Shown piece by piece: positions 1 through 1,719 of a stretch of DNA of 64,000 nt. Each line of letters begins with the position of its first letter. Positions within the stretch are counted from its first letter, which is position 1. The translations under genes and the position numbers were made by a program. The DNA lies in the NCBI GenBank assembly GCA_015069095.1, contig SVJH01000010.1:1-64000 (forward strand), written 5' to 3'. This DNA comes from Oscillospiraceae bacterium (lineage in GTDB: Bacteria; Bacillota; Clostridia; UMGS1810). The notes under the pieces are model-generated. The model was not told where the DNA came from, searched no databases, and saw only the letters and a program-made list of their open reading frames with translations.

Positions 1-98
1 AAACGACACAGGGCTCCGCCCTGGACCCGTTTTTAAAGTTATAGTTTTCTTTCTGGTTAAAATCCCTAACACGTACCCACGTATGGCGTTTTTTTTGT
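1..98. other. Intergenic window edge with a GC-rich hairpin
   Basis: No gene is visible. A small hairpin, CAGGG-ctccg-CCCTG, lies at about 9-23, in sequence richer in GC than its surroundings. It resembles the GC-rich hairpin (21333-21349) before one copy of the composite intergenic repeat, but the rest of that element is absent here, so membership is not claimed. Confidence 0.35.
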
Positions 99-1085
99 TT
101 ATTCTTCAAAATACTCTTGCACTTGAGTGTAATCTAAAATTGCTGCGTCAGCATTTCCTGATTTAACTTCTTCGATTGCTTCTTTAGAAGTTTCAACTAA
201 TATCAAATTGGCATTTTTTAAATTATCATCATACATTATAGTACTTTCAGCCAAAGAATTTGCTTCTGCAACAATGTATGCATCTTTAAGTGATGCAGTA
301 TCTTTGTATTTGTTTGCGTCTCCTTTTCTTATTACAACAACTTGTTTGTTTAAAATGTATGGAACTGTAAAGTCAAGATTTTCTTCTCTTTCTTCTGTTA
401 TAACAAATCCGTTCCAGATACAGTCGATATTTTTAGAGTTTAATTCCATTTCTTTTGTATCCCAGTTGATTTCAACAAATTCAGGTTCCACACCAAGTTT
501 TTCACAAACTGCTTTTGCATATTCTGTGTCAAATCCAACAAATTCGCCTTTGTCATTTGTAAAGTTTAATGGGTCGTAAACTGTGTACCCAATTACAAGT
601 TTTCCTTTTTCTTTAATATATTCAAGGTCGGATTCGCCGCTTGACCTATCTTTTGCTTCGCCAATTTCCAACAAGTTATCTGCTAAATCGTATTTTGCAG
701 CAATTTCTTTAAGTGTTCCGTCTTTGTATAGTTCTTTAGTAATTTTGTTTACTTCTGGAACAATGTCGCTGCCTTCTCTAAATCCAATTCCGTACTCTTC
801 TACTGCTAAATCAAGGCCCCTTATTACCATCAAGCCGTCATCTTTTTCATCGTCGCTACTTTTAGCATTATCATCATCTTTTTCATCTTTTTCATCTTTA
901 TTACTTTGTGAAGATGTAGTTTTTGTATCGTTATCAGAGTCATCTGAATCATCTGATTTACCAAGGTTCATTCCTATTACAAATGCAGCACTGACTAAAG
1001 TAATCACAAGTATTATTGAAAGAACTATAATCATTGCTTTTCCTTTTTTTGTTTTTTTACTGTTTTGTTGATTATTATTTTCCAT
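99..1085 (-). CDS. Membrane-tethered SBP_bac_3 solute-binding protein, segments in permuted order
   Basis: The parts of an amino-acid-type ABC transporter binding protein (SBP_bac_3) are recognisable. The ATG at 1085 is chosen because GGAGG sits five bases before it; the longer reading frame from 1106 overlaps the upstream gene. Order from the N-terminus: basic stretch, one membrane helix at about 17-39, and an acidic Asp/Ser/Lys-rich linker at about 44-84. Next comes a segment with EEYGIGFREGSD and an EVNKITKELYKDGTLKEI helix (about 95-135), which normally ends such proteins. The usual N-terminal part follows (KGKLVIGYTVYDPLNF, GFDTEYAKAV, FTVPY), and the protein stops at DYTQVQEYFEE, where the first segment would normally continue. 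There is no lipobox. It lies 13 bases behind the Nudix gene. No permease or ATPase is adjacent. Family is fairly sure; ligand unknown. Confidence 0.8.
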   Translation of the reverse strand: MENNNQQNSKKTKKGKAMIIVLSIILVITLVSAAFVIGMNLGKSDDSDDSDNDTKTTSSQSNKDEKDEKDDDNAKSSDDEKDDGLMVIRGLDLAVEEYGIGFREGSDIVPEVNKITKELYKDGTLKEIAAKYDLADNLLEIGEAKDRSSGESDLEYIKEKGKLVIGYTVYDPLNFTNDKGEFVGFDTEYAKAVCEKLGVEPEFVEINWDTKEMELNSKNIDCIWNGFVITEEREENLDFTVPYILNKQVVVIRKGDANKYKDTASLKDAYIVAEANSLAESTIMYDDNLKNANLILVETSKEAIEEVKSGNADAAILDYTQVQEYFEE

Positions 1086-1098
1086 TTCTGCCTCCGTT

Positions 1099-1719
1099 TT
1101 AATCAAATTCTATTTGCCAGTTTATATCGTCTTTTGCATCAAAACACATTTTGATTTGCTCTTTTGTAGTTTTACTTTCTGCCAGTGGCGGAAGATTATC
1201 AAGCGAAAAATATCCGCTTCCAAGTGTTTCAATATTTTCTTTAAACTCACCGCTTATGTATGTGCAAAGTACAAAAACTTTGCATATGTTATGAATGAAA
1301 GTGCCTTTGTTTCGCTTGTTGCGGTCATGTAGTGCAATTACTCTTTCGGCTTTAACTTTAACTCCTGCTTCTTCATATGCTTCTTTTTCAACATTTGTCT
1401 TAACAGATTGCATCTCATCAACCCATCCGCCAGGAAGTGCCCAAAGTCCGTCATCTTCTTTTACAAGAAGAATTTTGTTGCCTTCAAAAATTGCAGCTCT
1501 TGTTTCAATTTTTGGTGTTTGGAACCCTTTTTCATTGCAGAATAAATCTTTAACTGTTTCTATTGGAATTTCTGTTTTGTGCGATACTATTTCTGCAGAA
1601 ATTTCTCTTATCCTTTCAAATCGTTCAATATCAAATTTATCCTTTGAGTAGGCAAGTCCTGCCTGTGCTAAAAACTGAAGTTCTCTTGCCCAGTCAAGCC
1701 ATAAATTATACTTATCCAT
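1099..1719 (-). CDS. Nudix hydrolase with N-terminal accessory domain
   Basis: A 206-residue cytosolic hydrolase of the type with a helical N-terminal domain before the Nudix fold (ADP-ribose or nucleoside-diphosphate-linked substrates in characterised relatives). The Nudix box is at about residues 112-135: GGWVDEMQS, then KEAYEEAGV. The EEAGV half is canonical. The first half has the GGW form typical of this subgroup and lacks the usual glutamate. The start is preceded by GAGGG. It is the first gene of a two-gene operon with the binding protein and has a promoter at 1752-1780. The substrate cannot be read from sequence. Confidence 0.87.
   Translation of the reverse strand: MDKYNLWLDWARELQFLAQAGLAYSKDKFDIERFERIREISAEIVSHKTEIPIETVKDLFCNEKGFQTPKIETRAAIFEGNKILLVKEDDGLWALPGGWVDEMQSVKTNVEKEAYEEAGVKVKAERVIALHDRNKRNKGTFIHNICKVFVLCTYISGEFKENIETLGSGYFSLDNLPPLAESKTTKEQIKMCFDAKDDINWQIEFD

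Follow-up and report, generated by a model that had tools for sequence, protein, structure and literature searches.

A circularly permuted, membrane-anchored amino-acid-type binding protein from an Oscillospiraceae bacterium, and evidence for recurrent permutation of SBP_bac_3 domains in Clostridia

Circular permutation is usually regarded as a rare and ancient occurrence in nature, and chiefly as a tool of protein engineers. In the 64,000-nucleotide stretch of an Oscillospiraceae bacterium genome analysed here (contig SVJH01000010.1, positions 1 to 64,000; hereafter the window), the gene at 99–1085 appears to encode a solute-binding protein (SBP) that begins with the segment with which such proteins normally end. 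A first-pass annotation of the DNA proposed a circular permutation, named structure prediction and a search for homologues of the same order as ways to check it, and named a misassembly chimera among the findings that would count against it. We asked whether the rotated order is genuine, how often such orders have arisen and what the protein is likely to do. Our answer, which we hold with good confidence, is that the gene encodes an extracytoplasmic, membrane-anchored SBP of the amino-acid type and a genuine natural circular permutation, that this copy is a diverged duplicate that probably still binds a ligand, and that permutation of this kind is recurrent.

We refer to the first part of lobe 1 as segment A, to lobe 2 as segment B and to the part that closes lobe 1 as segment C. 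The gene runs on the minus strand from an ATG at 1083–1085 to a stop codon at 99–101, with a GGAGG ribosome-binding motif ahead of it at about 1091–1096. Its product matches SBP_bac_3 (PF00497) in two stretches with 113.6 bits, against a curated cut-off of 26.4. When compared with solved SBPs, residues ∼155–327 corresponded to chain residues ∼16–191, and residues ∼93–133 to the C-terminal part of those chains, ∼210–250. The order is C-A-B, as opposed to the canonical A-B-C, and the Pfam and solved-SBP matches bear out the original proposal that the closing segment comes first and that the domain ends at the junction where it would usually be joined. R233 stands at the position of the arginine that binds the ligand carboxylate in HisJ/LAO-type SBPs, and D318 at that of the aspartate that binds the ligand amino group. 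There is no lipobox cysteine in this protein; it has instead a membrane helix, preceded by a lysine-rich N-terminus, so that its topology is likely to be N-in, and an acidic linker that is missing from the paralogue L002 and the other relatives in the alignment. The features of the locus are collected in Table 1.

Table 1. Features at the permuted SBP locus, in window coordinates; residue numbers are those of the encoded protein.
Feature	Position	Strand	Basis
Dispersed repeat at the contig end, with a GC-rich palindrome	1..100		Five or more near-copies in the rest of the genome, one starting contig C45
Whole gene: membrane-anchored circularly permuted SBP_bac_3 protein, 328 aa	99..1085	minus	ORF, ribosome-binding motif, Pfam, doubling test
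Segment B (lobe 2), now C-terminal, residues ∼255–328	102..323	minus	Doubling test, paralogue comparison
D318 of ILDYT	132..134	minus	Alignment to the HisJ/LAO-type amino-group aspartate; invariant in alignment A1
Segment A, N-terminal part of lobe 1 in canonical proteins, residues ∼155–254	324..623	minus	Solved-SBP match, doubling test
R233 of TEER	387..389	minus	Alignment to the HisJ/LAO-type carboxylate arginine
Linker between segments C and A	624..680	minus	Alignment; lower pLDDT thereabouts
Segment C, normally C-terminal and closing lobe 1, here first, residues ∼85–135	681..833	minus	C-terminal parts of solved SBPs, tails of canonical relatives, model pLDDT
Acidic low-complexity linker, residues ∼43–84	834..959	minus	Sequence
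Hydrophobic membrane helix, residues ∼17–42	960..1037	minus	Sequence
Putative NUDIX-type hydrolase gene, directly upstream, 13-bp gap	1099..1719	minus	ORF; NUDIX name from sequence alone

We then examined the order with a doubling test, in which a profile of 106 canonical relatives was used to score each protein alone and again after it had been joined to itself. Self-joining raised the score of the window protein from 239 to 303 bits (+64) and that of L002 from 271 to 343 bits; the 106 canonical proteins shifted by −4 to +2 bits. Among the remaining permuted proteins the gain was 29–159 bits, with one exception (L010). In a larger set, 12 entries (nine distinct) showed no gain despite a permuted call from segment order; for most such entries HMMER splits the match at a long linker, and three were weak and were removed. 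The window domain gave one continuous profile match solely when it was self-joined. This gain, together with the finding of the same order in the paralogue and in other genomes, excludes chance as the source of the order. The possibility that the gene is a fragment of a tandem SBP was ruled out, because the protein is a complete single domain once rotated.

AlphaFold was supplied with an alignment in which the canonical relatives were given as separate AB and C pieces. The model of window residues 80–328 had a mean pLDDT of 94.2 and a pTM of 0.87, with segment C at pLDDT 93–98 along most of its length; a protein of B-C-A order (L075) gave an acceptable model (pLDDT 83.7, pTM 0.80). In sequence-ordered structure alignment the confident model of the window protein adopts the bilobed type II SBP fold, with 165–178 residues aligned to solved SBPs at Z ∼14–15. 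Nearly all of the listed solved SBPs matched just model residues ∼70–249, that is A and B, as expected in such an alignment for a displaced C; confidence and secondary structure were the basis for judging the lobe-1 sheet. Prediction, a check that the first-pass annotation had named, gives a confident fold that includes segment C.

Three SBP_bac_3 proteins were found in the organism's own genome and all are permuted: the window gene and L002 are C-A-B, and L003, after which permease and ATPase genes come next, is B-C-A. This genome has two polar-amino-acid permeases, one beside L003 and the other, with its ATPase, 128 kb from L002. The latter pair (L153:5672-7074; contig C30, ∼137.7–139.1 kb) lies behind hisS- and aspS-like genes; it has no binding-protein gene with it and is very similar to the pair that follows L002 orthologues. 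The divergent upstream neighbours of L002 (NifU-like and GGGtGRT-type) recur beside its orthologue in two related genomes, where a permease gene comes directly downstream, with the ATPase gene within the same stretch in one and in the first locus in the other, and permease and ATPase genes follow the orthologues L008–L010 in three genomes. Because the orthologues adjoin a permease gene while the pair in this genome lies so far away, we conclude that L002 has been separated from its transporter genes.

L002 retains a lipobox. It and the orthologues are lipoproteins, which makes the window copy's membrane anchor a later change. Because relatives of the same order are lipoproteins, the need to accommodate a membrane helix is not what produced the rotation; permutation and loss of the lipoprotein anchor are separate events. 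The helix and acidic linker in place of the lipoprotein anchor, noted in the first-pass annotation, are accordingly peculiar to the window copy; its relatives keep the lipobox. Two proteins encoded elsewhere in the same genome (L004 and L005; G000, contig C37) combine a zinc ribbon, a membrane helix and an acidic linker with differing outer domains. Their helix-and-linker part resembles the N-terminus of the window protein and is a possible source of it.

The immediate surroundings of the window gene are visible on one side. The NUDIX-type gene upstream is probably co-transcribed with it, and has no counterpart at E 1e-20 in any of the remaining 15 genomes of the family. On the other side the contig begins 98 bases beyond the stop codon, so that the downstream neighbour is not visible, and no transporter gene can be seen beside the window gene. 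The assembly breaks within the dispersed repeat at window positions 1–100. Contig C45, a candidate continuation past the window start, has 73 bases of the repeat in common and shows no importer genes.

The wider distribution of permuted proteins was surveyed by running a profile of the C-to-A junction on 293 Clostridia genomes and checking the order on fetched loci. At least 59 of the 293 genomes had matches spanning C to A, and in the fetched loci C preceded A in all but one, which is canonical (L222); one permuted locus was cut by a contig end. Three cut points were found: at the first hinge crossing, where A meets B; within B; and at the B–C boundary. No cut was found inside A or C, so that lobe 1 is always one continuous stretch. 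The binding proteins of L217, L219, L220, L106, L113 and L144 are cut inside lobe 2, with its halves at opposite ends of the chain. Permease and ATPase genes follow nearly all permuted genes that have enough flank, and in L192, L200 and L070 the B-C-A domains are fused directly to the permease, L070 (L070:13-3000) being a 995-residue protein with three tandem binding domains. This conserved operon context points to a continued role of the permuted proteins in import. The members of a second C-A-B clade (L013–L016) have no carboxylate-binding arginine and carry an EEV-type sequence in place of EER; they may bind a different kind of ligand.

The gene lies close to a contig end (98 bases away), beside a dispersed repeat, which might suggest that its rotated order is an artefact of assembly or binning. 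We regard this as vanishingly unlikely. The junctions of the rotation lie inside the gene, away from the repeat; L002, 79% identical and of the same C-A-B order, lies inside a 140-kb contig; C-A-B orthologues, all lipoproteins, are present in three other family genomes; and the same order occurs in two single-contig genomes (G189 and G213). The chimera named in the first-pass annotation is thereby excluded, and the homologues of the same order for which it called are at hand. The permutation itself is upheld by sequence, by a confident model and by retention of the order in independent assemblies. The clearest recent case is also hard to reconcile with an artefact. In one genus (g59), C-A-B proteins occur in 11 of the tree species, nested among canonical ones. 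Comparison of L046 (C-A-B) with L057 (A-B-C) from this genus showed loci, both flanks included, that are collinear at the DNA level apart from a C segment of ∼150 bp, which has left the 3′ end and now sits immediately after the signal peptide. Given the nesting and the movement of this single piece, the direction of change was from canonical to permuted, at least in g59.

How many such events there have been is a question for the trees. A tree of 169 un-rotated sequences required 14 changes between canonical and permuted order, at least nine of them forced by well-supported branches; an earlier tree of 135 rows gave 13. The cleaned tree omits three weak ‘CA’ calls (the fourth genes in L101, L126 and L139) and the canonical L222. 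Counts of changes cannot separate gain from loss, and a number of the permuted clades are old, with long branches, so that all permuted SBP_bac_3 proteins could in principle descend from one ancient permutation followed by many reversions. We consider this very improbable. There are three distinct cut points, canonical sequences are basal around the recent C-A-B clade in g59, and every reversion would itself be a permutation. Furthermore, a single permuted ancestor shared by the window clade and the L013 clade, the nearest two C-A-B groups, was rejected by the AU test (p 1.8e-7), for a grouping chosen after the tree had been seen. On these sequences, permutation of SBP_bac_3 in Clostridia appears instead to be recurrent, with several independent origins, three cut points and compatibility with import. 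A tandem gene that lost its outer parts, as suggested at first, is a possible origin. The domains of L070, the one tandem that turned up, are permuted already, and in the best recent example it is only the C-terminal piece that has been relocated, with signal peptide and flanks on either side unmoved.

What has become of the window copy since duplication is less certain. Its segment A is 92% identical to that of L002 with a synonymous divergence of 0.17, whereas the synonymous divergence is 0.92 in segment C and 1.31 in segment B; because it is low in A only, this suggests a gene-conversion tract between the two copies in segment A (324–623). Lobe 2 is 50% identical to that of L002 (dN 0.41), the conserved SAGE and QTDALLEV motifs are gone, and a threonine kept in L002 is here V228, so that binding of the ancestral ligand, or of any ligand, may be absent from the window copy. 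Its branch is 0.24–0.28 long as compared with 0.06–0.07 for L002, and among the 16 family genomes this second copy was found in its own genome alone. Together with the lack of a visible adjoining transporter gene, these features lend some weight to the view that it is a degenerating duplicate, still translated and folded and no longer the ligand-binding protein of any importer. We give this view an appreciable minority share of our belief. Against it, the reading frame is intact and has a ribosome-binding motif, R233 and D318 are retained, and dN/dS is ∼0.3 in lobe 2 and 0.26 overall, below 1 with dS partly saturated. We read this as continued but altered constraint on the protein.

Alternatively, the membrane-anchored copy might be a sensor or receptor whose rotated domain reports ligand through the tether. 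A single membrane helix with a long linker and no lipid anchor, a new N-terminus at the hinge strand and the lack of transporter genes in view would fit such a role. However, the ∼16 residues inside the cell contain no signalling domain, and membrane anchors commonly stand in for a lipobox; we think a sensor unlikely, and less likely than a degenerating duplicate. The reading that we prefer is that of a diverged duplicate that most likely would still bind an amino-acid-like ligand via R233 and D318, with a specificity changed because lobe 2 has diverged.

From the order of the segments and what is known of the fold, we envisage the following arrangement. A short linker would connect the original N- and C-termini, which both lie in lobe 1, and the new opening in the chain would fall where lobe 2 meets the second hinge strand. 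As a result lobe 1 would be continuous, only one of the two crossings between the lobes would stay covalent, and the tether would enter at the hinge strand and no longer where lobe 1 begins. The lipoprotein ancestor, already permuted, presumably served a polar-amino-acid permease and ATPase of the ordinary kind, as gene order indicates that its relatives still do, and the window copy would be a later duplicate, re-anchored by the membrane helix and linker. It is tempting to suppose that permutation has been repeated in Clostridia because it is functionally useful, with a continuous lobe 1, one cut hinge crossing and a tether or permease attached at the hinge or lobe 2 altering opening dynamics and docking, and with a local duplication–deletion or segment-moving process supplying the rotations. 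We offer this tentatively and would not yet favour it.

By profile the window protein belongs to the same family (SBP_bac_3, PF00497; E 7e-33) as 3hv1, AncQR (4zv1) and the HisJ, LAO and GlnH proteins. It shares with HisJ/LAO/GlnH-type SBPs the fold elements and the ligand-contact arginine and aspartate, and its relatives lie in the same permease–ATPase operons; it differs from canonical members in the site of its termini, at the junction of lobe 2 with the second hinge strand, in its C-A-B order, and in this copy's membrane helix and acidic linker in place of a lipobox. Tandem SBP–permease fusions of the GlnPQ type (6h30) contain a contiguous C-then-A stretch, as permuted proteins do, although each of their domains is canonical, whereas the permease-fused domains of L192, L200 and L070 are B-C-A. 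One further chain, the Plasmodium Venus-flytrap protein PfVFT1 (PDB 5jkq), aligned to model residues 25–248 (210 residues, Z 13.5, 4.2 Å) and was the only listed solved chain to align over that span. It is eukaryotic and 16% identical to the window protein, and from this structural match it may have a similar segment order.

The closest precedent is TpMglB-2 (Tp0684), a circularly permuted glucose-binding protein assigned to ‘Type Ic / Cluster Bc’, with relatives in Gram-positive gut bacteria, which retains ligand binding despite its permutation and for which tethering was proposed as a reason (PMC4990184). The two cases are alike as natural circular permutations of a tethered binding protein of the ABC-importer type, and both kinds are found in gut Gram-positives. 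TpMglB-2 has a type I sugar-binding fold in which the first strands of the N-lobe are at the C-terminus and a fourth crossing has been added (PMC4990184). In contrast, the present case has the type II amino-acid fold, with the last segment moved to the front and one covalent crossing that would be lost, and permutation here has several independent origins. The window protein thus falls outside Type Ic / Cluster Bc, being a type II SBP_bac_3 protein in which the other end of the chain has moved. Full-text literature searches, with few subscription journals among the texts covered, surfaced TpMglB-2 and engineered sensors and no report of a natural permuted SBP_bac_3 protein. OpuAC was considered as a permuted precedent; the literature text checked contains no such wording.

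One practical consequence is that, where the rotation goes unrecognised, domain annotation and alignment of these proteins can drop part of the chain. Matched canonical and permuted pairs are available for experiments on hinge mechanics, docking and tethering. Above all, a common transporter component is permuted in about one-fifth of the sampled Clostridia genomes, and has become so repeatedly, once within a single genus.
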